Below, piece by piece: positions 11,683 to 35,525 of a stretch of 64,000 nt of DNA. Under the pieces are notes generated by a model that saw nothing but the letters and a program-made list of their open reading frames with translations, was not told where the DNA came from and did no database searches. The stretch is from Mugil cephalus (Eukaryota; Chordata; Actinopteri; Mugiliformes; Mugilidae). Location of the stretch: assembly GCF_022458985.1 (NCBI RefSeq), contig NC_061774.1, positions 11,398,616 to 11,462,615 of the forward strand, read 5' to 3'. Positions within the stretch are counted from its first letter, which is position 1. The number at the start of each line of letters is the position of its first letter. A program made the position numbers and the translations under genes.

Positions 11683-13777
11683 TCATTTCATATCCATGAA
11701 GCGAATGTCCATGATAAGCAGAGTATGTCTGGGCAATGGTCTGGGTGCTGGCGACAGCACTTTCATAACCTGTGTCTGAGTGTCCACGTACGTTACCACG
11801 ATAAAGCCACACACGGGGCTCTCCACTATGCCTTTTCTAGCTCCCTCGTCGCCATCTTCGACACTGCTCACGCTCAGTACATGATACGTGAGGTCCCTCC
11901 CAGGTGTCACGGGCACCAGTTTTAGCTGTGTGTCGTCCTGAGACATTCCCAGTGGCAAGCACGAGTCCGGGATAGATGGAGCCCCGATCTTGTAGATGCG
12001 GACGTCTGAGAAGCGGACTTCAAAAGAAAAAGGGTAGTAGGAGACTCCGCGGAAACCATAGAAATACTCGCGGATCTTCTCATCCCGTGTGTCCCGCCGA
12101 CACTCCTTGGAACGCTCCACCACTCCCCCGGACTTGGGTAGGAGCACAACCCGCACAAAGTGAGGGAGGTCTCGTTTGAGTTCATTGTATAGCCTTTCAT
12201 GGTCCAACACTAGCACGACATCCACCTGAAAGGTAGAGGCACAGTGGACCAGAGCCTGGTATCCAGAGCCCTTCACCCAGCCACAAGTGTTGATGATACA
12301 GCCTCCCACACTGGCCTTCCTGTTGACTTCACAACGCTGGGAAAACACTTCGGCCAGGCATGACGTCAGCTACACAAGAGAAGAAGATTAAAGTGTGCAC
12401 AGGAAAACAAAGTCACTAACGTCAACACAGTTTATACTGTTTCTAGACATGGCCCAGAAGTTTTCTTTGCACCTTGTTGTAAAGTTTGATGTTGGTCCCT
12501 GGAGTTGTGGAGCCAAAGTGGTAGACCAAAGGAGCCTGGACTGAGAAACCCTCCTCCACATCTGCTGGACGCTCAATGCACAGTGCTGACACTGTCCCGG
12601 GTACAGACACCTGAAGGACCACAATGTTCTTTAGCACCTTTTATTTTTAAGAATAGCATAATCAATGTGTGCAGAGCTACTCTGAAAGCAAAAAAAATGA
12701 ACAGTAGAGCCCAACACTGTTGCTCCGCATAAACTTCGTCTGTGTCCAATTATAACTGACAATTATAATTCAGTGCGGGACCAAAAGGAAATTTCTGTCT
12801 GCAGTAATCACATTCTTTACCAGCAGTCAAGAGGATAATAAAAATGTGGGCTGTAACTTGGCAAGGGCATGATGTGGTATAGCTTTGCATAACTCCAAGA
12901 TAATTCAGGCCACAGGCAGCGATGCTAATGATTTAAATGTCAGCTTGTGCTACTCTCCTAATTTCTGTAGTCTAGTAAAAATGTTCATAATGACAGAGCC
13001 AGTTCATCTTACCCCACTCTGTCCGACATCCAGTTCCACCAGTGTGGGCCTCCTGCCAACCCTCACAGCATAGCTAAGGAGCAGCCGGCACACTGTTGAC
13101 TTTCCCACATCTGTCGGTCCTACTACCATCACCTAAGGGGGCAAGTAATCGCTCAGTTTTCATTTAAATTGCTTTTACTGGGATATGACAACTGTAACAC
13201 ATCTTGGCGCCTGAAAGAAGTTTTTCCTTATTAAAACATACCCTCGGCCCCCTCTCGTTGTCCCGTTCTGCCTGTTTTCTCATCTGTTCCAGGGCAGCGT
13301 GTGTGTTCAGGTAGAGCAGCATGGGAGTATCCTTTGACACGTAAGCCACCTGTGGTGATGCCAGAGGTGTTGGTTATTTGAGCCTTTTATCAATTATGCA
13401 AAACTCTCAAAAGCACAGTTTTAAATCTGATAAGCATATACTTTCTAACAGAAAAAAACATTCAGAAAAAGCGTATTTAAATTTTCAGTAAGGTGCTTGC
13501 TCACCTCTGGCTTCCCGTAAAGATTCACACTGCAACCCTGCCAGGTGAAGACTGCAATCTTGGAGCCCGGTCCAAATGTGTACTTCTTGTTGCGGTTCAG
13601 CTCCGATCCAAACACCTCTGCCATTCCCGTGAGAAGCTCCAACTCAACCTGCTCTGCTGCCTCCCCTGCCTCCACCTCAAACCGAAGCTCAGTCTCCTTT
13701 TCCAGGTCGAACCTGGTGCTGACCTTTCCAGTTGCTGGAGCATCTTCACTTGTCTTTTCCACAACCTCTGTTGCCAT
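11683..13777 (-). CDS. clp1: CLP1, polyribonucleotide 5'-hydroxyl kinase and pre-mRNA cleavage factor II subunit
   Basis: CLP1 is a nuclear RNA 5'-kinase that works in mRNA 3'-end cleavage (CF IIm) and with the tRNA splicing endonuclease. Coding exons are 13505-13777, 13242-13349, 13013-13132, 12473-12610 and 11683-12369, totalling 1326 nt and 441 residues (human 425). The N-terminal beta-rich domain is in exon 1. The P-loop GPTDVGKST lies at about residues 132-140 in the third exon, followed by [10 protein letters not shown]. The C-terminal domain ends with [12 protein letters not shown], the normal CLP1 end. Identity to vertebrate CLP1 is high throughout and all phases join. The first exon has an acceptor two bases before the ATG (CAG|TCATGG), so the 5' UTR is split, with a leader exon near 14500-14590. 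A minus-strand AATAAA at 11420-11425 fits the 3' end. The N-terminus is somewhat longer than human, with an acidic [13 protein letters not shown] stretch. Confidence 0.98.
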
Positions 13778-14499
13778 GACTGAAAAGAAAAACTCCAGGT
13801 CACAAATAATTGGCATGATCAGCAGCAGCACACTTAACAGTTACAGATTCAATAATAAACCACTATAGTGCAACAAGAACACACTAAACATGATCACAAT
13901 GCATCAAACACTACTAATGATATAATGTAGTTTATAAAGTGCAATTGCATGTAAAACATCCAGCAAGTCCTATATTCAACCACCGTGCCAGTACGTTGGA
14001 GTAAACAGACAGCTAAATAAACATAATTTCAACATTAAGATGAAACAAAATAACATATAGAGTGCTTCGCATTATACAGTTAAACACCAGATTTGTAAGT
14101 GGTATTTGGATGTTGTTTACGAACTTAAATTTTACTCAATCGCACCCAAAGAACCACGAGTATTAAATGTGATCAGGACTGTTCCCTCCAGTGTTTCTCA
14201 ACCTCTACAGTTAGGATTATGTGTAAAACAGAAAACAAGACACCGACGTAAACAACGGGTTGGAGATATGGCCAGATTTGGGCAAATGATGCTTCCATGA
14301 CAAACACATCCAAGTGGGAAACTGACTTCGGCACACCGCGGTCTAACAGCCCAGCGAAACGTTACCAGGCCGCGGCTAATCGAGCCTTACTAATATACGG
14401 CGGAATAACTGTATACAAAGACCCCAGACGGTACTAGATGCATATCATTACGTCAGACTAATGTTAACGAACTGATTCCTTTATGTGTTTAATACTCAC

Positions 14500-14600
14500 A
14501 TGCTTATTTCAAGCCCTTTTTGTAGAATGAAAATAAGTTTAATATTCAAGCACGGGTTCCCAGCCCGTCGCGCAAAAATGACGTCACTTCCCTCAAATCC
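14500..14600 (-). promoter_or_regulatory. clp1: clp1 leader exon and core promoter with CRE palindrome
   Basis: On the minus strand a non-coding exon ends in donor GCAT|GTGAGTATT at 14500. About 80 bp upstream is a full CRE-type palindrome, tgacgtca, at 14579-14586. The same block recurs, diverged, at 17490-17600, which supports it as a functional unit captured in a duplication. Transcription start not determined. Confidence 0.5.
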
Positions 14601-14942
14601 AATGGTATTCAACGTGTGCTTCAGCTTGACCACCGTGAAATTAAATGTCTGTAAGATCATGAGCAAATTGAACCATATTAAAATACAGTTATATCTGTAT
14701 CAAGTCATGCACTTACATATGTAAAGCAAAACGTATTGGTTTGACTTAAACATCATTCCCTAAACTACAGAACAAAATAAGCAAGTAAACAACGTCCACA
14801 TATTAACGTTAAAAGTCTTTATTTAAAAAAACAAAACAAACAAACAAAAAACAGATAAAGCCATAAACGAGTTTGAGAAATACAGGAAGAACTAACAACT
14901 TGGCCAGACTGTGCATCGGAGACATGTATTATCTTAAAGATG

Positions 14943-15080
14943 GTCCACTAGGGGGCGGCACAGTGGTGTAGTGGTTGGTACTGATCTCTCAGCAAGAAGG
15001 TTCTGGTCCAAAGACATGCTCATTAGGATTAGATGGGGATTATAAATTTGCCATAGGTGAGAATGAATAGTTGTCTCTAG
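14943..15080 (+). repeat. Dispersed teleost repeat fragment (gggcggcacagtggtgtagtgg type)
   Basis: It begins ctagggggcggcacagtggt and continues through the 'agcaagaaggttctgg' and 'tccaaagacatgct' words to 'gccataggtgagaatgaatagttgtc'. These words occur in this order in a very common fish interspersed repeat; the middle part is missing here. It is absent from the second selenoh unit, so it inserted after the duplication or was lost from the other copy. Confidence 0.6.
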
Positions 15081-15110
15081 AAGATCTAGAAGATGTCAGC
15101 AGCTGAAGCC

Positions 15111-15170
15111 TGGCTCATCAGAGGAGGGACTGAAAACTTGTCTCCTTGGTCTCTCCTCACCATTCTGCGT
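15111..15170 (-). ncRNA. Decayed SECIS element in the Cys paralog
   Basis: This is the counterpart of the hairpin at 18003-18072. On the minus strand the helix arms (15149-15158 and 15121-15130) and the unpaired AA are unchanged. The 5' quartet reads TGGU instead of TGAU because plus-strand position 15160 is c where the other copy has t. That replaces one of the two tandem sheared G.A pairs that define a SECIS core. The basal helix also has a mismatch (GACGC for GAAGC opposite GCTTC). The gene's redox codon is Cys, so no SECIS is needed. Confidence 0.8.
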
Positions 15171-15402
15171 CCAGTAACCACATCTCCTGAAAGCCCAGCT
15201 GCACAGAAGACAGGAAGAAAAGTTCTGTTCAATTACACATTTCATAGCATGCTTATGCAACTTTTAAAATATTTGGCAACGTGTGCACTGTCAGCTATAT
15301 TATCACCTTCTGCATTCAAGTCACAAAATAGTTTAGAAACTGCTGAATAAGGATGATTAGAATATGCATCACATGACATTCACATTCACATGCCATTTTG
15401 AG

Positions 15403-15467
<65 letters not shown>
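15403..15467. repeat. (CTAT)n tetranucleotide microsatellite
   Basis: About 16 uninterrupted CTAT units in the 3' UTR of the Cys-type selenoh paralog. It is absent from the equivalent place in the other copy. Confidence 0.97.
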
Positions 15468-15844
15468 AAACATGTCCAAAGACATAATCTTGACACAGTG
15501 TAATAAGCTCAGCACTGTAACACATCGTTCATGGTAAATGTGAGAGTATATATGCAGTAAAGGTAAGATAATTTCAGTCAAATATTTAACAGTATTAGCA
15601 CTTTACATTGTATATTTAGGGATTCTTTTAAAAATAACCCGTGGGCACAGATTAAATGTGTTATGACTAGGTTTTAATGTGGTTATATGATACTGAATTT
15701 TACTTGTAATACCATCCATTTTAGCAAAAAGCAGAAATGTTTTATTTTACAGTTTAATTCTAATTTTTATTACATGGATCGCTTATTTCAAGACTGCACA
15801 ACCCTTGCTTTAATTAATTAATTAATTCCAGCTTTGACAAACCT

Positions 15845-16877
15845 TCACTGGGTCTTCACCTCCATAGTCTCTTGAAGAACCTCAACTACAACCTTTGGTT
15901 CAGGAAACTTCAGCCGAGCAGGTGGACCCTTCTTTATTCCAGTCCACAGGGATGTTTCTTAAGGGATTAGATATAAGAGAACCATGTCGTTCAAAGGAAT
16001 GTATAGGGTGTGGGGTTGCATTCCTGTGCTAGCTTTGCATTCTTGAGACAGCAACACTTTGGTAAGTATGATGGCGATTCCCTAGAAACATTAAATGGTC
16101 AGGCTATTCTCGGATTTGCCATTTCCTCCTTCTCACCTTTGCCTCCATCCAGCAGAGTAACCTCAAAGCTTTTCTTGCGTGGTTTCTCAGGGTTAAGGAC
16201 CACGGTCAGTCCAGGGCGGGCTGCCAGGAGGGCTGACTTCACCCCCTCGGCATGACACCTATACACTCGGCAGCTTTTACTGCAATGGGAATTTGATCAA
16301 AATCCACCACTATATCGTGCTCATTAAAATAATTACTTCTAAAGACAGTCATTATAAGGGTTTGATGACTTGTGACTTATTATTTTTTAATTACACCACA
16401 ACATTTAGTGAACTAACAGCCTCTAAATGCTTCCTTTGGTGTTTTGATGTGATAACAGGGCTCACCAGTGTTCAATAACCACCCTTGGACCTTCCTGGCC
16501 GGTCTCCTCCTCTCCTGCTCGGTCCTTCTTCTCCTCTACGGATGGTTGCTCCTCCTCTGCAGCTTTGCGCTTCGTCCCCCGACGACCTGAACGACACACG
16601 CGTGGTTGTGTGGATTAGAAAGTGGATGATATAAATCTACTAGTTAGTTTTTTCATTCCTTCAGGGTTGGATGCTTTGTTCCACTGTTGCTTGCTAACTT
16701 TACACCGTCTAACCCAGACACAGCGACACGACAGCCAAGAAACAAGTACTACGACAGACTGGATTTTGTTTTATCGACAGTAAAATAAAATAAAAGTACA
16801 TCTTTAAAATTCATGTGTTGAGTCCAGCCGTGTGGATCCTATGCCACCACAACACACCCACCTGCTTTGGGCGCCAT
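15845..16877 (-). CDS. Selenoprotein H paralog with cysteine in place of selenocysteine
   Basis: Four coding exons, 16862-16877, 16466-16586, 16137-16279 and 15845-15957, total 393 nt and 130 residues (human SELENOH 122). Family features include a basic nuclear-type N-terminus (MAPKAGRRGTKRK), an acidic linker, VVIEHC, the redox motif, LNPEKPRKKSFEVTLL, and WTGIKKGPP near the end. The redox motif reads C-K-S-C at residues 46-49; the codon at 16270-16272 is TGC where the neighbour copy and human have TGA (Sec). After it, RVYRCHAEGVKS replaces RVYGRNAEEVKS, so the normally conserved GRN is altered. No stop, frameshift or broken splice site is visible, and the introns are retained, so this is not a processed pseudogene. 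Function is expected to be nuclear thiol redox activity with Cys chemistry; expression is untested. The start is the ATG at 16877, the same position as in the sister copy. Confidence 0.93.
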
Positions 16878-17470
16878 TGTAGTTATAAAACTTTTGGGCG
16901 TACCGTACCATTATTTTTGTTGAAGGGGTTTTCAGGTGCACGGACGAAACCATTAATAAGAAAGACTTCTGAAATTTCACCACCTGACAACAACTTCCTG
17001 GGATATTAACATTTTGGGACACTATGCGTAACAACATAAAAGTATAATTTTAATAAATTCAAAACATAAATCAGTTTCTCTATGGTAATTGTAATTACCA
17101 TGCAGTCATTATAGAAAACAAATAACTTTGCTAGTACGACAGAACTGTGACACTACAGGCGTTTATTATCCTGTAATATATTTATCTCGGAACAATCAGC
17201 GACTGTAAATTCTGTGCGTTTTTCATTTTGGTTTGTTGCAACATTTCAATGTGAATGGCAGTCTGATTTTTAAAGAAAATATTCATGTATATTTCGCGTC
17301 CTCGACTTGGGACTTACTTGATACGAATAAATGGGTAGTCATCACAATACAACTGTAATTACTAAGTTTTTATAACAATGTTTTCAAATTATTTTGTTTT
17401 TGTGGAGACAAACATTTTACAAAATCAGTCTTTGGACGCTTATTTTTACGTTAGATGGACATTTACGAAG
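16878..17470 (-). promoter_or_regulatory. Upstream flank of the Cys-type selenoh copy
   Basis: This is the first duplicated flank. The part close to the ATG (taccgtacc on plus, a few tens of bp upstream) has a counterpart upstream of the second copy. The part from about 16970 to 17400 matches 32000-32400 rather than the sequence adjoining copy two. No TATA box is obvious. Confidence 0.4.
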
Positions 17471-17489
17471 CGATTATTTTAAATGTTTA

Positions 17490-17600
17490 ATACTTACATA
17501 GTTTTTTCAAGCTTTTTTTGTAGAATGAAAATAAATTCAACGTTAAAGAACGGTTGTCGGGGCTCGTCGCTCAAATATGACGTCACATCCAAAGGAAACA
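17490..17600 (-). promoter_or_regulatory. Duplicated clp1 leader/promoter block between the two selenoh genes
   Basis: This block aligns with 14485-14600: ttttgtagaatgaaaata, the gctcgtcgc context, and the CRE palindrome tgacgtca at 17578-17585 are all kept. The donor is preserved and even improved (ATGTAAGTATT on minus). No clp1 coding sequence follows it; the downstream sequence is the intergenic end of the first selenoh unit. It marks the junction between the two duplicated units and could be an orphan promoter. Confidence 0.75.
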
Positions 17601-17826
17601 GTTGTAGCAACGTGCGCTTCAGTGGTAAATCTGATCTGATTGATGGATAAGTTTAATAATGGTGTTAAACATTAAACAAACGCGTGTAAGTTCTTCATCA
17701 ATTTGAGACGTGTCATTACAATACAGTAGTGGCTGTATCAAGTCATGCATTCAAAGCAAAATGTTTTGGTTGGACTACAGCCCAAAAAAGCAAAAACACA
17801 ACATCCACACAAAAACTTTCAATGTC

Positions 17827-18668
17827 TTTATTGAACAAATCAGTGATAATATCACAAACAAAACAAAACAAAAAAAAAAAAAGAGAGAGAGAAACCGAGG
17901 AAAAAACAAATGAAACGAAGACGCAAGACTGTGCATCTGAGGAATGTATATCAGAGATGCTCCACCAGGTGGCGCCGTGTATCCAGAAGATGTCAGCACT
18001 TGAAGCCTGGCTCATCAGAGGAGGGACTGAGAACTTGTCTCCTTGGTCTCTCCTCATCATTCTGCTTCGACTGGCCACATCTCCTGAAAGCTCAGCTGCA
18101 TACAAGACAGGAGGAAAGGCTCTGTTCTATTACACAATTCATAACCTATGAGAACAGATTAAATATGTCGAGGTCACTTAATTTTAGGTTTTAAAATATG
18201 TACATCCAACAATGCAATTACAGAATGATATGATCATTTCAAGGATGCTACAAAATCAGAGAATATACATATGAAGACAAGCTGTAAAGGATTTTATGAA
18301 TCAGTAGAAAAAAAATTAAAGTACAGTTCTGGTGTACAGTATCTTATTTTTAGGTTAATTCATATGTAAAAAGCAGGAAGGCAGAGTTATATACTGAATG
18401 AATACTGAATTTTACTTGTAATACAATCCATTTCAGCACATACTTCTATCAACTACACATTTCCAAACAGTGGCACTTTGAAAACAAGATCAGCATAAAC
18501 TGTATTTATCATGTCTTTATTCCATGTATGGTGTAAGGGGGGAAAAATAGCAGAAATCTTTTATTTTACAGTTCTAATTTTTGTTACATGGATTACTCAT
18601 TTTGAGACTGTACAACCCTTGCTTTCATTTATTTTTGTACTATTCTGTCAAACAGCTTAGACAAACCT
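17827..18668 (-). other. selenoh: 3' UTR of the Sec-type selenoh gene
   Basis: It runs from the stop at 18669 to a minus-strand AATAAA at 17827-17832. It contains the SECIS and otherwise AT-rich sequence, with patches that align to the 3' UTR of the other copy. Confidence 0.7.
18003..18072 (-). ncRNA. selenoh: SECIS element (probable form 2) of selenoh
   Basis: The hairpin recruits SBP2 and the Sec-specific elongation factor so that UGA is read as Sec. On minus, in order: basal helix strand GAAGC; internal loop; quartet strand A-TGAT (18056-18060); helix arm GAGGAGAGAC (18046-18055); apical AA (18043-18044); a small inner hairpin; helix arm GTCCCTCCTC (18018-18027); quartet strand TGAT (18014-18017); and GCTTC closing the basal helix. 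The long helix has 9 of 10 pairs, with one A.C mismatch. TGAT facing TGAT gives U.U, G.A, A.G, U.U, the canonical core. AA lies 12 nt after ATGA, the usual spacing. Confidence 0.92.
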
Positions 18669-20568
18669 TCACTTGGTCTCCACCTCCACAGCCTCTTGCA
18701 GGGCAGCAACTACAACATCTGGTTGAGGAAACTTCAGTTTACGAGGTGGACCCTTCTTTATTCCAGTCCACAGGGATGTTTCTTAAGGTATTAGATATAC
18801 GAGATCTGTGTCATTCATCAGGATGTATTGGGTGTGGGGGTGGCATTCACGTGTCAGCTTTGCATTCCTGGTGCACACAGCTCTCTGTTGACTGTGCAAG
18901 CAGGATTCAATCAAACTGGGCTCAAGCAGATTACAACTTTGAGGCATGGTTTCTCTGAACGGCAAGATGAAATGTGCTCAATTCTATTTTGAGTAATCCT
19001 CAACATTTCAATCAAAATGGTGTAACTGGGACATTGTTTCCTTCCACCAAAAGCCTTAGAGGTGAATATCTCATAACATTTGCTAATATTACATGCATAA
19101 CAGGCAGTGGTTTTAAACATACGAGGTTTGATGCCAAGAAATTTAAGTAGCCACTTCGGTTGGTAAAACCACAAAAAGTGAGACAGCAACATTTATAAGT
19201 ATGATGGTGATTCCCTAGAAACATTAAATGGTTGAGTTACTTTTGGATTTGCCATTTCCTCCTTCTCACCTTTGCCTCCATCCAGCAGAGTAACCTCAAA
19301 GCTGTTCCTGCGTGGTTTCTCAGGGTTGAGGACCACAGTCAGTCCAGGGCGGGCTGCCAGGAGGGCTGACTTCACCTCCTCAGCATTACGCCCATACACT
19401 CGTCAGCTTTTACTGCGATGGAAAATTGATGAAAGTCATCAAGGCTGGTAATTAAGATACATACACATATACATTAACCCTAGCTGTGAAAAAATAAGAA
19501 TAAGAACTAATTTCATTTTATATATCTGCTACCAAACGTTTAAATATTTGAACAGGTACGGTAGAGTGGACTGTGTATTTAATTAAAAAAAAAAGATATC
19601 TAAGTCAGATAACAGTTTAATGATTGACTAGCATGATGAGTTATGTCATTTTTTTTAAAATTAAAAGCACTGCTCATTGTCTGGTTCTAGTGGATGTGTG
19701 GAAATATTTCCTTTCAATATTGTAATGTGAGTTTATCTGATCAATAATAAAAATGTTAACTGCATAAAAAACATGATCTGGTTATAAAATGTTAAGAAGT
19801 AGTTAGAATCAACTCCACAATTACTGCCTGTATTTAGTTAAATGAATAATACTTGATTTAGTAACAATGTATGGACACATGTGGCCCCTTTTCATCATTA
19901 AAATAATTACTTTTAATACATAAGACACTCATAAGGGTTTGATGACTTGTGCCTTATTATTTTTAATTACACCACAACATTTAGTGAACTAAAAGCCTCT
20001 AAATGCTTCCTTTGGTGTTTTGATGTGATAACAGGGCTCACCAGTGTTCAATAACCACCCTTGGACCTTCCTGGCCGGTCTCCTCCTCTCCTGCTCGGTC
20101 CTTCTTCTCTTCTGTGGATGGTTGCTCCACCTCCGCAGCTTTGCGCTTCGTCCCTCGACGACCTGAGCGATACACGTGTTGTTGTGTTGTTTCATAACAG
20201 ACCTGATTCAATAACTACTCGTTGGTGTGTAAAATATAACGTTGCACACGACAGCAAGTCATTCAGTCGACCATGCAGTGCTACTTTTTTAATTAGGTGG
20301 ATGTAATTAGAAAGTGGATGATATAAATCTAGTTGTTTCTTCATTCCTTCAGGGTTGGATGCTCTGCTCCACTGTTGCTTGCTAACTTTACACCGTCTAA
20401 CCCGGACGCAGCGACATAACAACCGTGAAACAAGTGCTATGTCGGCCTCTATTTGGTTTTATCAACGGGGGAAAAAAGTACATCTTTAAAATTCATCTAT
20501 TTAATACAGTTGTGTGGTGATTATTTCCACCACAACACACTAACACACCCACCTGCTTTGGACGCCAT
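18669..20568 (-). CDS. selenoh: Selenoprotein H, selenocysteine-containing
   Basis: SELENOH is a small nuclear/nucleolar thioredoxin-like redox protein linked to genome stability and oxidative stress defence. Coding exons 20553-20568, 20042-20162, 19270-19412 and 18669-18781 total 393 nt including the internal TGA, giving 130 residues. The order is MASKAGRRGTKRK (basic, AT-hook/NLS-like), an acidic linker, RVVIEHC, the C-K-S-U motif at residues 46-49, RVYGRNAEEVKSALLAA, LNPEKPRRNSFEVTLL, then WTGIKKGPPRKLKFPQPD. TGA at 19403-19405 sits exactly where human SELENOH has Sec, and a canonical SECIS lies about 0.65 kb downstream in the UTR. Introns two and three are about 300-450 bp longer than in the sister gene because of insertions. 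A conventional gene finder would truncate or split this gene at the TGA. Confidence 0.95.
19403..19405 (-). other. selenoh: UGA selenocysteine codon of selenoh (residue 49)
   Basis: On minus the reading is T|AAA AGC TGA CGA GTG TAT, i.e. (C)-K-S-U-R-V-Y. The frame stays open on both sides and is conserved with the paralog, where the same codon is TGC at 16270-16272. Confidence 0.95.
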
Positions 20569-21899
20569 TGCAGTTACAAAACTTTCGCGCGTGCGTACGT
20601 CGACCGTACCATTATGTTGTTGAAAGGGTTTCCATATGGACGGACGAAACCATTAATAAGAAAGATTTCTGTATGTCTATGAGTTTACAGGACAGACATG
20701 CCACATTCATTATGGCGGACGCGTTGACGTATCGCAGCAACGGATCCACCTCAATGCGGCGTCTACGTATATATGTATATGATTGTAACATCTTACCCTG
20801 TGTATTAATGAGTGTCCTCCTGACTAACAGTAGCCATGTCGCCCGTATTCCGGCCGACAAATCCTCACTTTTATCATATTACTGACTTCTTACTAACAAA
20901 TCAAAACATCTTCTCACTTGTGAAATGGTATTCCCTTGGTTTTGGTGTTTCATTCACGGGAACATCCGTAAACAACACAAAAGTCTGTCAGCGGTCAGAC
21001 TGATCACAGAACCCCTGCCCAAGATGGCGGCCGCGATGACGTGTCTGACCAGCCAGAATGCGGCATCTAGTGCCTATGCTAACTGACTATACTACTGTGA
21101 CCTGTAGATGACGTCACAGCCAACGTAACGGAGTGGGTGGGGTCTGTTCCTAGGCAACGTTGCTGAGTTTGGCTAAGATCAAAGCCAAATTATGATCAAA
21201 GCCAGTATTAGAGTTCATAGTCCTCTGGGTTTTATATCCCGATTTTACAGTATTCTGTAGAATCGTCTCACACATCAGTAAGCAAGTATTTAGTAGTAAG
21301 TATGTAAGTAGTGATATTGTGCCAGGAACAAACGCTTGTTATAAAGTGATATTGCAGCTACAACAAAAACACAGGCCTATCACAAAGCAGGATTACGGAT
21401 TTAGCGAGGTAACTAAAGGGTTAACCCTGGATTTCCGGTACCACAAAATTGGATTCATTCTTATCGAGGTAGTTTACTCTGAACAGCAAACCTGCGTCGG
21501 GCCAGATTAACTATCAGGATTGATCTGATTCCGATAAAAGGCTCCACCCATCGGCCAATCAGATGGCAAAAAATGGCAAAAAAGCAATATTTTCCTTTGG
21601 TCATGCAGTAGGCACTTTGTCTGTTTTTACAACTAATGATGTAAACTAGGGCCACTTCTACCCCAATGCATTTGAGAACCGAAATGCCACATGCTCACAA
21701 GCTAAACAGAGGAGGCGGACAAAGTGACACCGGCCAGGCTTGTATTTTTAAAATGGTCCTTTGTCAACTATTGTTTTAAAACCAACAATGGAAATACCCC
21801 ACAGATAAATTCTTCCTTTAGAATCCCCAGTCACTAGATTGGTTTCCTTCATATCCGTGACCATGGATGTAATAAAGGTATCATTCCTGTCCACTGCCT
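20569..21899. other. Upstream flank of selenoh, no gene seen
   Basis: Positions 20700-20770 (cgttgacgtatcgcagcaac... cgtctacgtatatatg) are shared with 31925-31995 on the far side of the minisatellite array. Other parts are single-copy with no protein-like frame. A short CpG-containing stretch around 21020-21130 (gatggcggccgcgatgacgt) may be promoter-related. Confidence 0.5.
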
Positions 21900-24689
21900 T
21901 GAACTCAGAGGTGGATGTGGTGTGGGCTGAACCTTAGGGATTGGTTGCAGGTGTACATGTTTAGATTCCTGTTTGTCTGTACTATCTTTCAGTATTTTAC
22001 CACTAGACTGGCCTGGGATGGATGGGGTCAGACATGTGAGCTGGCCTTTAGCTGGGGTGTGGGGAGTCAGAGGTGTATGTGGTGTTAGCTGAAATTTGTC
22101 AGGGATTGGTGGCAGGTGTAAATGTTTAGATCTATTGGTAAAATACGTCTTTCAGTATTTTACCAGTAGACTGGCCTGGGATGGGTGGGGTCAGATGTGT
22201 GACATGACCTTTAGCTGTGGTGGTGAGGAGGTGTACTTGTCTTGATATTTGTTTGGATCCCCTCTTGACTGAACTATCCTGGCCTGTGGTGGTGGGGAGT
22301 CAGGGGTGGATGTAATGTGGGCTGATCGTTATCAGGGATTTGTGGCAGGTGTACTTCTTAAGTTTCCTGTTTGTCTGTACTGTCTTTCAGTATTTTACCA
22401 CTAGACTGGCCTGGGATGGGTGGGGTCAGATATGTGTGCTGGCCTTTAGCTGTGGTGGTGGGAGTCAGGGGTGGATGTGGTGTGGGCTGAAACTTATCGG
22501 GAATTGGTGGCAGGTGCATGTTTCAGATTCCTGTTTGCCTGTACTGTCTCTCAGTATTTTACCAGTAGACTGGCCTGGAATGGGTGGGCTCAGATGTCTG
22601 ACATGACCTTTAGCTGTGGTGGGAAGAGGTGTACTTGTCTTGATATTAGTTTAGGTCCCTGCTTGACTGTACTATCTTGACTTGTGGTGAGGGGAGTCAG
22701 GGTGGATGCGGTGTGGGCTGACCATTATCAGGGATTGGTGGCAGGTGTATGTTTAGATTCCTCTTTGTCTATACTGTCTTGCAGTATTTTACCACTAGAC
22801 TGGCCTGGGATGGGTGGGGTCAGATGTGTGAGCTGACTTTTAGGTGGAGAGACGTAGTTGTCTTGATATTAGTTCAGATCCCTGCTTGACTGTACTATCC
22901 TGACCTGGGGTGTGGGGAGTCATGGTGGATTCGGTGTGGGCTGACACTTCCCAGTGATTTGTGGCAGGTGTACATGTTTAGATTCCTGTTTGTCTGTACC
23001 ATCTTTCAGTCTTTTACCACTAGACTGGCCTGGGATGGGTGGAGTGAGATGTGTGAACTGACCTTTAGCTGCAATGGTTGGGAGTCGTACTTGTCTCGAT
23101 CTTTCTTTAGATTCCTGTCTAACTGTACTATCCTGGCCTATGGTGCAGGGAGTCAGGGGTAGATGTGGTGTGGGCTACTACTGACCCTTAACAGGGATTG
23201 GTGGCAGGTGTATGTGTTTACATTCCTATTTGTCTGTACTGTCTATCAGTATTTTATCACTAGATTGGTCTGGGATGGATGGGGTCAGAGGCAGATGTGT
23301 GAGTTGACCTTTAGCTGTGGTGGTGGGGAGGTGTACTTGTCTTGATATTTGTTTAGGTCCCTGCTTGACTGTACTATCCTGACCTGTGGTGTGGGGAGTC
23401 AGGGTGGATGTGGTGTGGGCTGACCATTACCAGGGATTGGTGGCGGGCGTGTGTTTAGATTCCTCTTTGTTTGTACTGTCTTTCAGTATTTTACCACTAG
23501 ACTAGCCTGGGATGGGTGACGTCAGATGTGTGAGCGACTTTTAGGTGGAGAGACGTAGTTGTCTTGAATTCTGTTTAGATCCCTGCTTGACTGTACTATC
23601 CTGACCTGTGGTGTGGGGAGTCAGGGGTGGGTGTGGTGTGGGCTGACCCCTACCAGAGATTGATCGTGGGTGTACATGTTTAGATTCCTGTTTGTACTGT
23701 CTTTCATTCTTACCACTAGACTGACCTGGGATGGGTTTGGTCAGATGTGTGAGCTGACCTTTACCTGTGGTGGTGGGGAGTCAGGGGTGGATGTGGTGTG
23801 GGCTGACCATTACCAGTGATTGGTGGCAGGTGTTTGTGTATAGATTGCTGTTTGTCTGTACTGTCTTTCAGTATTTTACCAGTAGACTGGCCTGGGATGG
23901 GTGGGGTCAGATGTGTGAGGTGACTTTTAGCTGTGGTGGTTGGGAGGTGTACTTGTCTTGAACTTTATTTAGATCCCTGCTTGACTGTACTATCCTGGCC
24001 TGTGGTGGTGGGGAGTCAAGGGTGGATGTGGTGTGGGCTGAAACTTATCAGTGATTGGTGGCAGGTGTAAATGTTTAGATTCCTGTTGTCTGTACTGTCT
24101 TTCTGCATTTTAACCCCTAGACTGGCCCGGGATAGGTGGGGTCAGATGTGTGAGCTGACCTTTACCTGTGGTGGTGGGGAGTCAGGGGTGGATATGGTGT
24201 GGGCTGAAACTTATCAGGGATTGGTGGCAGGTGTATGTGTTTACATTCCTATTTGTCTGTACTGTCTATCAGTATTTTATCACTAGATTGGTCTGGGATG
24301 GATGGGGTCAGAGGCAGATGTGTGAGTTGACCTTTAGCTGTGGTGGTGGGGAGGTGTACTTGTCTTGATATTTGTTTAGGTCCCTGCTTGACTGTACTAT
24401 CCTGGCCTGTGGTGTTGGGGAGTCAACGGTGGATGTGGTGTGGGCTGACCATTACCAGGGACTGGTAGCAGGTGTTTGTGTATAGATTGCTGTTTGTCTG
24501 TACTGTCTTTCAGTATTTTACCAGTAGACTGGTCCGGGATAGGTGGGGTCAGATGTGTGAGCTGACCTTTACCTGTGGTGGTGGGGAGTCAGGGGTGGAT
24601 GTGGTGTGGGCTGAAACTTATCAGGGATTGGTGGCAGGTGTACATGTTTAGATTCCTGTTGTCTGTACTGGCCGTGGTGGTAGGGAGCC

Positions 24690-26275
24690 ATACTTGTCTC
24701 GGACTTTGTTTAGATCCCTGCTTGACTGTACTATCCTGACCTGTGGTGTGGGGAGTCAGTGGTTGGTGTGGTGTGGGCTGACCTTTACCAGGAATTGTTG
24801 GTGGGTGTACATGTTTAGATTCCTGTTTGTACTGTCTTTCATTCCTACCACTAGACTGGCCTGGGATGGGTTTGGTCAGATGTGTGAGCTGACCTTTACC
24901 TGTGGTGGTGGGGAGGTATTCTTGTCTTGATATTTGTTTGGATCCCTGCTTGACTGTACTATCCTGACCTGTGGTGGTGGGGAGTCAGGGGTGGATGTAG
25001 TGTGGGCTGACCCTTACCAGGGATTGGTGATGGGTGTACATGTTTAGATTCCTGTTTGTGCTGTCTTTCATTCTTACCACTAGACTGGCCTGGGATGGGT
25101 TTGGTCAGATGTGTGAGCTGACCTTTAGCTGTGGTGGTGGGGAGGTATCCTTGTCTTGATATTTGTTTGGATCCCTGCTTGACTGTACTATCCTGGCCTG
25201 TGGTGGTGGGGAGTCAGGGGTGGATGTGGTGTGGGCTGACCATTACCAGTGATTGGTGGCAGGTGTTTGTGTATAGATTGCTGTTTGTTTGTACTGTCTT
25301 TCAGTATTTTACCAGTAGACTGGCCTTTGGATTCCTGTTTGTCTGTACCGTGTCAGTCTTTTACAACTATGGCCTGGGATGGGTGTGGTCAGATGTGTGA
25401 GATGACTTTTAGTTGTGGTGGTGGGGAGGTGCTCTTGTATTGATATTTGTTTAGAGCCCTGCTTGACTACTACCCTGATCTGTGGTGTGGGAAGTCAGAG
25501 GTGGATGTGGTGTGGGCTGAACCTAAGAAATTGGTAGTAGGTGTGGTGGTGGGGAGTCAGGGGTGGATGTCTTTCAATATTTTATCACTTGACTAGCCAG
25601 GGATGGGTGGGGTCTGAGGCAGATGTGTGAGCTGACGTTTAGCTGTGGTGGTGGGGAGTCAGGGATGGATGTGGTGTGGGCTGACCCTTATCATGGATTT
25701 TTGGCAGGTGTGCCAATTTTAGATTGCTGTTTGTCTGTACTGTCTTTCCTGCACCACAGGCCAGGGTAGTACAGTAAAGCAGGGATCTAAACAAATATCA
25801 AGACAAGTACGCCTCCCCACCACCACAGCTAAAAGTCAGCTCACACATCTGACCCCACCCATCCCAGGCCAGTCTAGTGGTAAGAATGAAAGACAGCACA
25901 AACAGGAATCTAAACATGTACACCCATCACCAATCCCTGGTAAGGGTCAGCCCACACTACATCCACCCGTGACTCCCCACCACCACAGGTCAGGATAGTA
26001 CAGTCAAGCAGGGATCCAAACAAATATCAAGACAAGAATACCTCCCCACCACCACGGGTAAAGGTCAGCTCACACATCTGACCAAACCCATCCCAGGCCA
26101 GTCTAGTGGTAAGAATGAAAGACAGTACAAACAGGAATTTAAACATGTACACCCACCAACAATTCCTGGTAAAGGTCAGCCCACACCACACCCACCGCTG
26201 ACTCCCCACACCACAGATCAAGATAGTACAGTCAAGCAGGGATCTAAACAAAGTTCGAGACAAGTAACCATGGTA
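24690..26275. repeat. Inverted duplication of about 500 bp inside the array
   Basis: The stretch 24690-25190 reads, as reverse complement and nearly base for base, again at about 25770-26275. That includes the rare variants ggaattgttggtgggtgtac, gatgggtttggtcagatg and ggaggtattcttgtcttgat. About 580 bp separate the arms and contain the first orientation switch. The left part of the minus arm (aattcctggtaaaggtcagc block) is repeated at 26649-26768 and 26875-26990. Confidence 0.8.
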
Positions 26276-26650
26276 AAACACACATGACTCACCATCCAGA
26301 ATTGGGGTAAATACTGAAAACAAACAGGAAGGATCTTGTATATCACCCCACACCAACCAAGGTAGTCAGTAAAGGATCTAAAAAATATAACATACGCCCC
26401 CCCCACCGCTAAGTCGCCACCATCTACCCCACCATCCGCCGTTAGTGTAATGAAAGACAGCACACAGGATCTAACTTACACCACAATCCTGGTAACAGCC
26501 ACACACATCACCGTGACTCCCCACCCAGGTAGGAAGTACAGTCAAGCAGGGCCAACAAATATAGCAAGATACCCCCCACAGAAAGGTCGCTAATGACCAA
26601 ACCCATCCCGGCAGTCATGTAATGAAAGACAGTCAAACAGGAATTAACAG
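26275..26650. repeat. Abnormally eroded repeat units, possible assembly damage
   Basis: Here the array consensus is still followed but with many 1-6 base deletions clustered together (for example accccaccatccgccgttag and agatacccccca where units elsewhere are intact). Flanking units on both sides are well preserved. The pattern looks like uncorrected sequencing or gap-fill error more than evolution. Confidence 0.55.
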
Positions 26651-29600
26651 ACCCACCAACAATTCCTGGTAAAGGTCAGCCCACACCACACCCACCGCTG
26701 ACTCCCCACACCACAGATCAAGATAGTACAGTCAAGCAGGGATCTAAACAAAGTTCGAGACAAGTATACCTCCTCACACACAGTAAAGTCAGCTCACACA
26801 TCTGACCCACCCATCCAAGGCAGTCTAGGGTAAAAGCTGAAAGACAGTACAGACAACAGGAATTAAACATTTACACCCACCAACAATTCCTGGTAAAGGT
26901 CAGCCCACACCACACCCACCGCTGACTCCCCACACCACAGATCAAGATAGTACAGTCAAGCAGGGATCTAAACAAAGTTCGAGACAAGTATGGGTCTCAA
27001 CCATTGCAGCTAAACGTCAGCTCACACATCTGACCTCACCCATCCAAGGCAAGTCTAGGGGTTAAAATACTGAAAGACAGAACAGAGTATTAGGAATCTT
27101 GTGATATACACCCCACACCAATCCCTAAGGTTTGACCCACACCACATCCACCTGCCACTCTCCACACCACAGGTCAGGATAGTACAGTCAAGCAGGGATC
27201 TAAACAAATATCAGGACAAGTGCGACTCCCAATCACCACAGCTAAAAGTCAGCTCACACATCTGACCCCACCCATCCCAAGCAAGTCTTGTGGTAAAAGA
27301 CAGTCAGGAGTCAGGGGTGACTGTGGTGTGGGATGAACCTTAGGGATTGCTGTGGGGTGTATATCTTAAGATTCCTATTTCTCTGTTCTGTCTTTCAGTA
27401 TTTTACCACTAGACTGGCCTGGGATGGGTAGGGTCAAATGTGTGAGATGACCTTTACCTGTGGTGGTGTGAGTCAGGGGTGGATGTGGTGTGGGCTGACC
27501 GTTACCAGGGATTGGTAGCAGGGGTTTCTGTATAGATTGCTGTTAGTTTGTACTGTCTTTCAGTATTGTACCAGTAGACTGGCCTAGGATAGGTGGGGTC
27601 AGATGTGTGAGCTGACATTTAACTGTGGTGGTGGGGAGACAGAGCTGGATGTGGTGTGGGCTGAACCTTAGGGATTGGTTGCAGGTGTACATGTTTAGAT
27701 TCCAGTTTGTCTGTACTGTCTTTCAGTATTTTACCAGTAGACTGGCCTGGGATGGGTAGGGTCAGATGTGTAAGATGACCTTTAGCTGTGGTGGTGGAGA
27801 GGTGTACTTGTCTTGTTCTGTGAGTCAGGGGTGGATGTGGTGTGGTCAGATGTGTGAGCTGAGCTTTAGCTGTGGTGGTGGGGAGGTATCCTTATTTTGA
27901 TATTTGTTTGGATCCCTGCTTGACTGTTCTATCCTGGCCTGTGGTGGTGGGGAGTCAGGGGTGGATGCAGTGTTGGGTGACTCTTACCAGGGATTGGTGG
28001 CAGGTGTGCATGTTTAGATTCCAGTTTGTCTGTACTGTCTTTCAGTATTTTACCACTACATTGGCCTGGGATGGGTGGGGTCAGATGCGTGAGCTGACCT
28101 TTAGCTGTGGTGGTGGGGAGGTGTAGTTGTCTTGATATTTGTCTGGATCTCTGCTTGACTGTACTATCCTGTCCTGTGGTGTGGGCAGTCAGAGGTGAAT
28201 ATGGTGTGGGCTAACCCTCACCAAGGATTGGTGGCAGTTGTATATGTTTAGATCCCTGTTTGTCTGTACTGTGTCAGTCTTTTACAACTATGGCCTTGGA
28301 TGGGTGTGGTCAGATGTGTGAGATGACTTTTAGTTGTGGTGGTGGGGAGGTGCTCTTGTTGATATTTGTTTAGAGTCAGAGGTTGATGTGGTGTGCGCTG
28401 AACCTGAGGAATTGGTAGAAGTTGTGGTGGTGGGGAGTCAGGAGTGGATGTGGTGTGGCCTGAAACTTATCAGGGATTGGTGGCAGGTGTAAATGTTTAG
28501 ATTCCTGTTTGTCTGTACTGTCTTTCAATATTTTATCACTTGACTAGCCTGGGATGGGTGGGGTCAGTGGCAGATGTGTGAGCTGACATTTAGCTGAGGT
28601 GGTGGGGAGTCAGGGATGGATGTGGTGTGGGCTGACCCTTATCATGGATTTTTTGCAGGTGTGCCAATTTTAGATTGCTGTTTGTCTGTACTGTCTTTCA
28701 GTCTTTTATTACTAGACTGTCACTTTTCAAAAATTGGAGTTCTGGTGTGAGTTCTTGTGACTTACTAAACAGGAATCTCAACACATACACTTATCACCGA
28801 TCCCTGTTAAGGATCAGCCCAGAAAACATCCACCTGTGACTCCCCTCACCATAGGTCAGGGTAGTAGTTAGGCAGGGATCTAAACAAATATCAAGACAAG
28901 TACACCTCTCCACCACCACAGCTAAAAGTCAGCTCACACATCTGACCTGACCCATCCCAGGCCAGTCTAGTGGTAAAATACTGAAAGACAGTACAGACAA
29001 ACTGGAATCTAAACATGTACACTTGCCACCAATCCCTGGTAAGAGTCAGCCCACACCGCATCCACCCCTGACTCCCCACCACCACAGCTAAAAGTCAGTT
29101 CACACATCTGACCCCACCTATCCCAGGCCAGTCTAGTGGTAAAATACTGTAAGACAGTACAGACAAACAGGAATCTAAACATGTACACCTGCAACCAGTC
29201 CCTAAGCTTCAGCCCACACCACATCTAGCTGTGTCTCCCCACACCACAGGTCAGGATAGTACAGTCAATCAGGGATCCAAACAAATATCAAGACAAGGAT
29301 ACCTCCCCACCACCTCAGCTAAAGGTCATCTTACACATCTGACCTCACCCATCCCAGGCTAGTTTTATGGTGAAATACTGAAAGACAGTGCAAACAAACA
29401 GGAATCTAAACATGAACACCTGCCACCAATCCCTGGTAAGGGTCAGCCCAGACAACACAAACCTCAAACTTACTGTACCACAGGTCAGGATAGTACAGTT
29501 AGGCAGGGACCTAAACAAATATCAAGACAAGTACACCTCCCCATCCATGCAGCTAAAAGTCAGCTCACACATCTCACTCCACCCATCCCAGACCAGTCTA

Positions 29601-31879
29601 GTGTTAAAATACTGAAAAACAGTACAAACAAACTGGAATCTAAACATGTATACCTGCTACAAATCCCTGGTAAGAGTCAGCCCACACTGCATCCACCCCT
29701 GACTCCCCACCACCACAGCTAAAAGTCAGCTCACACATCTGACCCCACCCATCCCAGGCTAGTGTAGTGGTAAAATACTGAAAGACAGTACAGACTAACA
29801 GGAATCTAAACATGTACACCTACAACAAGTCCCTAAGGTTCAGCCCACACCACATCCAGCTCTATCTCCCCACACCAAAGGTCAGGATAGTACAGTCAAT
29901 CAGGCATTTATCTCACACATCTGACCTCACCCATCCCAGGCTAGTTTTGTGGTGAAATACTGAAAGATAGTATAGACAAACAGGAATCTAAATACCTACC
30001 AATCCCTGGTAAGGGTCAGCCCAGACAACATCCACCTCTTACTTCCTGCACAACAGGCCAGGATAGTACAATCAAGCAGATTTCTAAACAAATATCAAGA
30101 TAAGTACGCCTCCCCACCACCACAGTTAAAAGTCAGCTCACATATCTGATGTCACCCATCCCAGGTCAGTCTAGTGACAAAATACTGAAAGACGGTACAG
30201 ACCAACTAGAATCTAAACATGTTCACCTGTCTCCCCACACCACAGGTCAGGATAGTACAGTCAATCAGGGATCTAAACAAATATCAAGACAAGTAACCTT
30301 CCCGCCACCACAGCTAAAGTTCATCTCACACATCTGACCTCACCCATCCCAAGCCAGTCTAGTGGTAAAATACTGAGAGACAGTACAGACAAACTGGAAT
30401 CTCAACACCTGCCACCAATCCCTGGTAAGGGTCAGCCCAGACAACATCCACCTCTGACTTCCTGCACAACAGGCCAGGATAATACAATCAAGCAGATTTC
30501 TAAACAAATATCAAGACAAGTACCCCTCCCAACCACCACAGCTAAAAGTCAGCTCACACATGTGCCTCTGACCCCACCTATCCCAGGCCTGTCTGGTGAT
30601 AAAATACTGAAAGACAGTACAGACAAACAGGAATCTAAACACCTGCCACCAATCCCTAGTAAGGTTCAGCCCACACCACATCCAACTCTGACTCCCCACA
30701 TCATAGGTCAGGGTAGTACAGTCAATTAAGGTTGTAAACAAATATCAGGAGAAGTACACCTCCCCACCACCACAGCTAAAGGTCATCTTACACATCTGAC
30801 CCTACCCATCCAGGGCCAGTCAAGTGGTAAAATACTGAAAGACAGTACAGACAAACAGGAACCTAAACATGTACACCTGCAACCAGTCCCTAAGTATCAG
30901 CCCACACCACATCCAGCTCTGTCTCCCCACACCAAAGGTCAGAATAGTACAGTCAATTAGGGATCTAAACAAATATCAAGACAAGTAACCTTCCTGACTG
31001 TACAGCTAAAGGTCAGCTCACACGTGTGACCTCACCCATCCCAGGCCGGTCTACTGGTAAAAAACTGAAAGACGGTGCAGACACACAGGAATCTAAACAT
31101 TTACACCTGCCACCAATCCCTGATAAGTTTCAGCCCACACCACATCCACCCCTGACTCCCAGCCACCACAGCTTAATGTCAGCTCACACATCTGACCCTA
31201 CCTATCCCAGGCCAGTCTACTGGTACAATACTGAAAGTCAGTACAGACAAACAGCAATCTATACACAAACCCCTGCTACCAATCCCTGGTAACGGTCAGC
31301 CCACACCACATCCACCCTTGACTCCCCACCACCACAGCTAAAGGTCAGCTCACACATCTGACCCTACCCATCCCAGGCCAGTCAAGTGGTAAAATACTGA
31401 AAGACAGAACAGAGAAATAGGAATCTTAAGATATACACCCCACACCAATCCCTAAAGTTCAGCCCACACCACATCCAGCCCTGTCTCCTGACTGTCTTTT
31501 ACCACTAGACTTGTGTGACATCAAATGTGTGAGCTGACTTTTAGCTGTGGTGATTGGGAGGTGCACTTGTCTTGATATTTGTATATTTTTAGATCCCTGC
31601 TTGACTGTACTACCCCGGCCTATGGTGTGGTAATTCAGAGGTGGATGTTGTCTGGGCTGACCCTTACCAGGGATTGGTGGCAGGTGTTTAGAGTCCTGTT
31701 TGTCAGTACTGTCTTTCAGTATTTACCACAAGACTAGCCTGGAATGGGTGAGGTCAGATGTGTGAGATAACCTTTAGCTGTGGTGGCGGGAAGGTTACTT
31801 GTCTTGATATTTGTTTAGATCCCTGATTGACTGTACTATCCTGACCTGTGGTGTGGGGAGATGATTTATGAAGTTCAGT

Positions 31880-32420
31880 CCATTTCCTCTTATTATTTTA
31901 CGGTGCAGATCTGCCACATCCAATATGGCGACGTGTTGACATATCGCAGCAATGGACCAACCTGCTCAATGCGGCATCTACGTATATATGTCTATAGATA
32001 TTACCAGCTGACAACAAACAACTTTCCGAGATACTAACATTTCTACATATTAGACATAACAACACCGATGTATATTTTTAATAAATTCTAAACATACATA
32101 AGTTTATGCATTATAAAAAAATAAACAAAACAAAACAGTGATTTAGGTGTGATTACAATGTAATATGTGTTTATTATTCTGGAAACATTCAGTTTTGCGT
32201 TTTTGTTTTCATTTTGGCGTGTTGCAATATTTCAGTGTGAATCACATTTGCGCTTTAATGAAAGTATTCATGTATATTTTGACAAGTAAGATTAATATGA
32301 TAAATTTGCCAGAATAAATAAAATAAAGGGGTAGTCTAGAGTAGAACTATAATTACTGTTGTTTTTTAAAAACAATGTGTTCTAGTAATTTTGGATCTGT
32401 TAACTAAATATTTTTATTTG
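31880..32420. repeat. Displaced selenoh upstream flank beyond the array
   Basis: The left part (31925-31995) matches 20705-20770. The right part matches the flank of the Cys copy: ctgacaacaa... atattaacatt... ataacaac at about 16980-17035, and cattttggtttgttgcaaca... gtattcatgtatatttcg at 17225-17300. No selenoh exon is present. It is best explained as the continuation of the second unit's flank, cut off from its gene by the array. Confidence 0.7.
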
Positions 32421-35309: not shown

Positions 35310-35525
35310 CACCAAGTCCAAAACATAAAGATAGCCAGTCAATCGCAGAGCTAATACAGAGACCGTTAGCACTCACACCTAGGGTCAATTTTGAATCACT
35401 AATTAACCTAATGAGCATGTCTTTAAAATAGTCGGAAAAAACACACAGAAAGGCCAGAGGCGGACTCAAACCCGGACATTCTCGCTGGGAAGCATCACTG
35501 CTAACCACAGAGCTCGTAGCAGGCT
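35310..35525 (-). repeat. Dispersed teleost repeat fragment, same family as 14943-15080
   Basis: In minus orientation relative to the 14.9 kb copy. Recognisable words are tcacacctagggtcaatttt, attaacctaatgagcatgtc, cacacagaaaggccagaggc, and tcactgctaaccac near the end. A short local duplication (ggccccaagtaaagac) precedes it at 35250-35296. Confidence 0.65.

Follow-up and report, generated by a model that had tools for sequence, protein, structure and literature searches.

How did two selenoprotein H genes that lie side by side in one genome come to differ at the very codon that specifies selenocysteine (Sec), and is the copy that carries cysteine (Cys) in its place a maintained gene or a decaying duplicate? 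We addressed this in a 64,000-nt stretch of Mugil cephalus DNA (contig NC_061774.1, positions 11,398,616 to 11,462,615, forward strand), here called the window, whose own numbering is used throughout. Our analysis makes it probable that a whole selenoprotein H gene was duplicated in tandem, together with the exon bearing its selenocysteine insertion sequence (SECIS) element, and that the left copy lost Sec and has a SECIS now in decay.

Two genes of common structure and the codon that separates them

Both genes are complete and occupy the minus strand head to tail, their starts 3.7 kb apart. Coding exons of 16, 121, 143 and 113 nt are common to the left copy (hereafter the Cys copy) and the right copy (the Sec copy), giving each a coding sequence of 393 nt with the stop and a product of 130 residues, and all three coding introns are of the GT-AG type in both. 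These sizes and splice sites bear out a preliminary description of this DNA, which had reported two complete head-to-tail genes with equal coding-exon sizes. The frame of the Cys copy is open, with intact coding-intron splice sites, no stop and no coding indel.

16862-16877, minus strand: Cys copy (left), coding part of exon 1; the ATG starts at 16877
16466-16586, minus strand: Cys copy, coding exon 2
16137-16279, minus strand: Cys copy, coding exon 3; TGC at 16270-16272, RCH codons just beyond
15845-15957, minus strand: Cys copy, coding part of exon 4 including the stop codon
20553-20568, minus strand: Sec copy (right), coding part of exon 1; the ATG starts at 20568
20042-20162, minus strand: Sec copy, coding exon 2
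19270-19412, minus strand: Sec copy, coding exon 3; Sec codon TGA at 19403-19405
18669-18781, minus strand: Sec copy, coding part of exon 4 including the stop codon

Codon readout at position 49 gave TGC in the left copy (16270-16272) and TGA in the right copy (19403-19405), within the K-S-x-R-V-Y context that had been claimed for both. The Sec copy thus reads C-K-S-U-R-V-Y-G-R-N (C46-K-S-U49, a CxxU motif), whereas the Cys copy reads C-K-S-C-R-V-Y-R-C-H (CxxC). The difference of RCH in the Cys copy versus GRN in the Sec copy, also noted before, was found at residues 53-55. We take the vertebrate selenoprotein H motif to be U-R-V-Y-G-R-N and its GRN to be conserved. Overall, the two coding sequences differ at 34 of 393 nt (91% identity), and 20 of the 130 codons, codon 49 included, differ in meaning. 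An unusual concentration of changes around the Sec codon was considered and rejected: codons 49-58 (30 nt) hold 6 changes, fewer than the 8 found in the densest 30 nt of the coding sequence, a stretch of exon 4 that is unremarkable in its own right (p 0.12).

Both products match the models of the family. With Cys replacing Sec in the right-copy protein for these searches, TIGR02174 (CXXU_selWTH) scored 47.1 bits for the left and 51.8 bits for the right copy (cut-off 34.2), and Pfam Rdx scored 27.3 and 32.0 bits, respectively (cut-off 22.6). No match to the protein was found among solved structures at E up to 1. The pair thus shares with selenoprotein H elsewhere the Rdx/TIGR02174 domain, a CxxU or CxxC at the start of that domain and a SECIS in the inferred last exon, and differs in comprising two tandem copies, one of them with Cys. 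Selenoprotein H is described as a thioredoxin-like CxxU redox protein with glutathione peroxidase activity, nucleolar according to the paper's title (PMC8985259). The Sec copy is expected to function as selenoprotein H does in other genomes.

The assembly to which the window belongs (635 Mb, 24 contigs) also encodes a tRNA-Sec. Its locus scored 78.1 bits (cut-off 47) and has the anticodon tca according to ARAGORN. The search for tRNA-Sec gave 23 matches, 3 of them above the cut-off, which ARAGORN calls as one tRNA-Sec and two tRNA-Ser; the search alone is not specific, as 14 of 14 control genomes were matched, 5 above the cut-off. A protein search of the same assembly (8 candidates, all scored) revealed no third copy of the gene, its 6 matches being exons 2, 3 and 4 of these two genes only. 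No relative was found in two collections of viral and prokaryote contigs (0 of 275 and 0 of 497 pattern stretches confirmed), as expected of animal-free collections.

The inferred fifth exon and its SECIS-like elements

The four-exon model given previously holds for the coding exons, but both genes apparently include an additional exon 5, non-coding and with a SECIS-like element, and that of the left copy lies outside the span 15845-20568 to which the pair had been assigned. This layout agrees with the published structure of selenoprotein H genes, whose 3' untranslated region (UTR) is shared between two exons, the final one carrying the SECIS (PMC3316567). In both copies, a donor (AAG/GTTTGT) directly follows the stop codon, and a pyrimidine-rich acceptor ends at 18096 in the Sec copy and at 15199 in the Cys copy.

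14818-15198, minus strand: Cys copy, inferred exon 5, from acceptor CAG to AATAAA (14818-14823), by splice consensus and homology with the Sec copy
17827-18095, minus strand: Sec copy, inferred exon 5, from acceptor CAG to AATAAA (17827-17832), by splice consensus and homology between the copies
18014-18060, minus strand: Sec copy, putative SECIS core AUGA..AA..UGAU with a six-pair helix adjoining the quartet, lowest in energy of the 10 pattern matches listed for the window at -8 kcal/mol or below
15117-15163, minus strand: Cys copy, SECIS-like core with AUGG for AUGA; AA and UGAU kept

In the Sec copy the elements of the core follow in the order AUGA, six-pair helix (GAGGAG/CUCCUC), unpaired AA with a mini-stem above, and UGAU. 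With TGA in a CxxU motif and this 3' SECIS core, the right copy keeps the Sec design. Within the 47-nt core, 2 positions differ between the copies, one of which is the quartet adenosine (AUGA to AUGG in the Cys copy). The helix adjoining the quartet is unchanged, with folding energies of -14.2 (Sec copy) and -13.5 kcal/mol (Cys copy). The left copy combines a CxxC motif, through its TGC, with a SECIS-like element that has lost the 5' quartet adenosine in the best-folding register. Shifted by three bases, the Cys-copy element offers GUGA with a weaker fold (-10.2 kcal/mol in the pattern scan; Sec copy, -10.9), and in the GUGA register with a shorter core the energies are -6.5 (Cys copy) and -7.2 kcal/mol (Sec copy). 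Sponges and certain algae have SECIS elements of the GUGA form (PMC3473315), which has been described as rare among eukaryotes (PMC11227280). The SECIS of the Cys copy is thus probably weakened or broken, though not certainly dead.

Our custom SECIS pattern scan of both strands of the window listed 10 rows at -8 kcal/mol or below: two registers of the Sec-copy element, one of the Cys-copy element and seven unrelated matches. The Sec-copy element is the lowest of these (-14.2), the next being unrelated (-12.1). The SECIS stretch at 15084-15203 (120 nt) is 90.8% identical between the copies, versus 53.9% for intron 4 and 67.1% for the rest of the 3' UTR; the latter two regions, as well as the sequence downstream (65.8%), include poorly aligned stretches. 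A 163-nt stretch of SECIS-exon DNA around the element matched the assembly twice (2 of 2 candidates; 100% and 89%), so that this search, too, found no copies beyond these two.

Whether the Cys-copy element has been under constraint was examined in a 44-nt register with 2 differences, under neutrality of the left lineage only. At the rate of introns 1-3, P was 0.33; at that of the flank 14437-14624, with gap columns counted as differences, 0.056; and at that of intron 4 plus 3' UTR, which comes from poorly aligned sequence, 0.002. Given this spread, the answer depends on the local clock.

Extent, divergence and surroundings of the duplication

The duplication covers the gene from the proximal promoter through the poly(A) signal. 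The preliminary description had placed the genes correctly, but the duplicated unit is wider than its span:

14437-16971, minus strand: duplicated unit, Cys copy, from downstream flank to proximal promoter
17435-20671, minus strand: duplicated unit, Sec copy
16354-16715, minus strand: putative gene-conversion tract (Cys-copy coordinates), with low silent-site divergence
16974-17418, no strand: upstream flank of the Cys copy, 445 bp, homologous to 31998-32414 (64%, E 7e-31)
31998-32414, no strand: ancestral upstream flank of the Sec copy, now displaced
20672-31997, no strand: repeat-rich insertion, 11.3 kb, between the proximal promoter of the Sec copy and its old flank

Exons 2, 3 and 4 are 95.0, 93.0 and 85.0% identical between the copies, and introns 1-3 are 82.3, 87.6 and 84.7% identical, with 97 of 627 aligned sites differing. 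In the low-divergence tract, 14 of 256 silent sites are mismatched versus 105 of 699 overall, a contrast reached in 1 of 5000 shuffles (single penalty tried), and the longest mismatch-free run comprises 60 silent sites (p 0.003). The tract stops 82 nt before the Cys codon. This pattern suggests gene conversion, which uneven constraint or mutation rate could mimic.

Because 16974-17418 matches 31998-32414, the old upstream flank of the Sec copy now lies 11.3 kb away. The intervening insertion starts 104 bp upstream of the Sec-copy ATG and contains tandem arrays in both orientations, with units of about 160-230 bp. Direct repeats, each about 120 bp long, lie at its ends, and TATGTCTAT may be a 9-bp target duplication. 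Its first 1229 bases gave at least 47 matches dispersed over the genome, itself included, in the 40 of 410 candidates that were scored.

Two other repeats were seen in the Cys copy. A repeat-like stretch (14950-15080) lies in its inferred 3' UTR between SECIS and poly(A) signal, where 15010-15078 matches 35358-35424 on the opposite strand at 75% and is perhaps a short interspersed element (SINE). A perfect CTAT microsatellite of 16.2 units (15403-15467) lies in its inferred intron 4. A CLP1 gene (11683-13840, minus strand; Pfam CLP1_N, CLP1_P and Clp1) follows the Cys copy immediately downstream and is the sole neighbour confirmed by Pfam. The open reading frames 2005-3174, 41550-43862 and 59515-59856 resemble ZDHHC5, an RTN4R-like gene and an SLC43 member, identities that Pfam did not confirm: it reported leucine-rich repeats for 41550-43862 and nothing for 2005-3174 and 59515-59856. 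Genes of these three kinds lie near human SELENOH.

Fate of the Cys copy

The account that we favour begins with tandem duplication of an entire selenoprotein H gene with its SECIS exon. Sec-bearing selenoprotein H would be the ancestral vertebrate state, so that the left copy would be the one that lost Sec. This polarity rests on the vertebrate U-R-V-Y-G-R-N motif. It rests as well on the presence of selenoprotein H with Sec in all vertebrates of a 44-genome survey (PMC3316567). The comparison itself covers two copies of one genome, in which assigning a change to either lineage takes orthologues. After the loss of Sec, the SECIS of the left copy would no longer be needed and its decay would begin, while the Cys protein, a thioredoxin-like CxxC paralogue, would come from normal translation and so would not depend on the supply of selenium. 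Within the 5' half of the genes, a stretch was probably homogenised by gene conversion, which halted short of the Sec/Cys codon. Replacement of both redox residues by Ser reportedly lowered the enzyme activity of selenoprotein H but not its role as a PPAR-alpha coactivator (PMC13088273); as that role is insensitive to the replacement, some functions could persist in the Cys copy irrespective of its redox strength.

As to its maintenance, we lean slightly towards selection rather than drift. The coding sequence has 0 indels, versus 11 indel events beside the 627 aligned sites of introns 1-3; for one neutral lineage, 3.4 indels would be expected in the coding sequence (P 0.03 for zero). The ratio of nonsynonymous to synonymous divergence (omega) between the copies was 0.74 by NG86 (dN 0.083, dS 0.112), with a codon bootstrap (400 draws) of 0.38-1.85, and four methods gave about 0.7 to 1.2. 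Neither this range nor the unexceptional changes at codons 49-58 lend weight to the earlier suggestion that the Cys copy is diverging in function.

Several observations weigh against the favoured account. Omega is not distinguishable from 1 and lends no support to purifying selection; chance alone preserved a stop-free frame in 54% of simulations of 17 random substitutions and in 37% of those with 28; the intact frame could also stem from gene conversion by the Sec copy; and the Cys copy scores below the Sec copy in both family models. Regarding the SECIS, the Cys-copy element (-10.2) is not conspicuous in our pattern scan, where 4 unrelated window matches lie lower, and Rfam found no SECIS at gathering score in the window and none among 5 matches at E up to 10 within 14400-20700. 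Moreover, the Cys-copy SECIS may not be dead, as it has GUGA in the alternative, weaker register. The omega and the lower family scores suit a Cys copy that is a decaying duplicate turning into a pseudogene, in which TGC, RCH and the SECIS hit were neutral and youth together with gene conversion left the frame open, and so do the changed GRN stretch, the quartet change and the putative conversion tract. We regard such decay as a serious possibility, yet a somewhat doubtful one: the copy has neither stop nor coding indel and keeps its coding GT-AG sites beside 11 indel events in introns, its poly(A) signal and proximal promoter are retained, and a change from the Sec codon to Cys, the usual substitute, is not a disabling one.

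The order of events could also have been the reverse, a SECIS mutation having first cost the left copy its Sec insertion and turned TGA into a premature stop, with TGA to TGC then selected as a rescue. Both changes are indeed in one copy and are single-nucleotide changes, but one genome cannot give their order, a truncated stage would need to survive, and the GUGA register might have kept some Sec insertion; we consider this sequence of events quite improbable. Finally, an assembler may set two haplotypes of one locus side by side, and tandem near-copies are a known assembly error. Such an artefact is very improbable here and was rejected: of 627 aligned sites in introns 1-3, 97 differ, divergence is greater still in the flanks, 11 intron indels separate the copies, the insertion split the flank of one copy only, and the window is free of N. 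The copies are too diverged for haplotypes.

Returning to duplication followed by Sec loss, the tandem Sec/Cys pair described earlier is real but has a precedent. Mammalian GPX5 (Cys) and GPX6 (Sec) arose from tandem duplication of GPX3 (PMC3316567), likewise a selenoprotein gene duplicated in tandem with one Sec and one Cys product. They belong to another protein family, and their Cys was inferred to be very early, whereas the Cys copy here retains a nearly complete SECIS. Medaka GPx4b2 and Rdx12 are also Cys paralogues from selenoprotein gene duplication, in other genes (PMC3316567), and zebrafish SelW2a and SelW2b are tandem duplicates within the SelT/SelW/SelH family that, unlike the present pair, both retain Sec (PMC3316567). 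One invertebrate (column Ta) has two SelH selenoproteins tabulated (PMC3473315). Nothing in the literature listings and passages searched described a tandem or Cys selenoprotein H, although a survey of ray-finned fishes (Tico and Mariotti 2025) or a review by the same authors (2025) may describe this pair. The Ta of that invertebrate column we take to be Trichoplax. The abstract of the 44-genome vertebrate survey does not list SelH among the families duplicated in bony fishes (PMC3316567). What the present pair adds is its whole-gene anatomy and a SECIS with one quartet change.

For GPx5, GPx4b2 and Rdx12, the Sec-to-Cys swap was inferred to have come early after duplication (PMC3316567). That the present Cys copy has clearly diverged and yet keeps most of its SECIS hints that its swap came later, with statistical support that varies with the local clock. 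The copies would then have long coexisted as two Sec genes before a late swap to Cys and a first SECIS hit, leaving the Cys copy selenium-independent, with an active-site neighbourhood of its own (C46, C49 and C54). We hold this unlikely, but if true, the pair would be a snapshot of late Sec loss, contrasting with the early swaps in those three genes.

Why some selenoproteins retain Sec while others take Cys is a standing question. A pair with a common gene structure, proximal promoter, neighbourhood and tRNA-Sec host makes both forms comparable in one cell. The near-controlled comparison claimed for it earlier does not hold, since 19 further residues and the SECIS differ and the 11.3-kb insertion displaced the upstream DNA of the Sec copy, so that the comparison is not a clean one. 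Even so, the Cys copy may catch an early step of SECIS decay.

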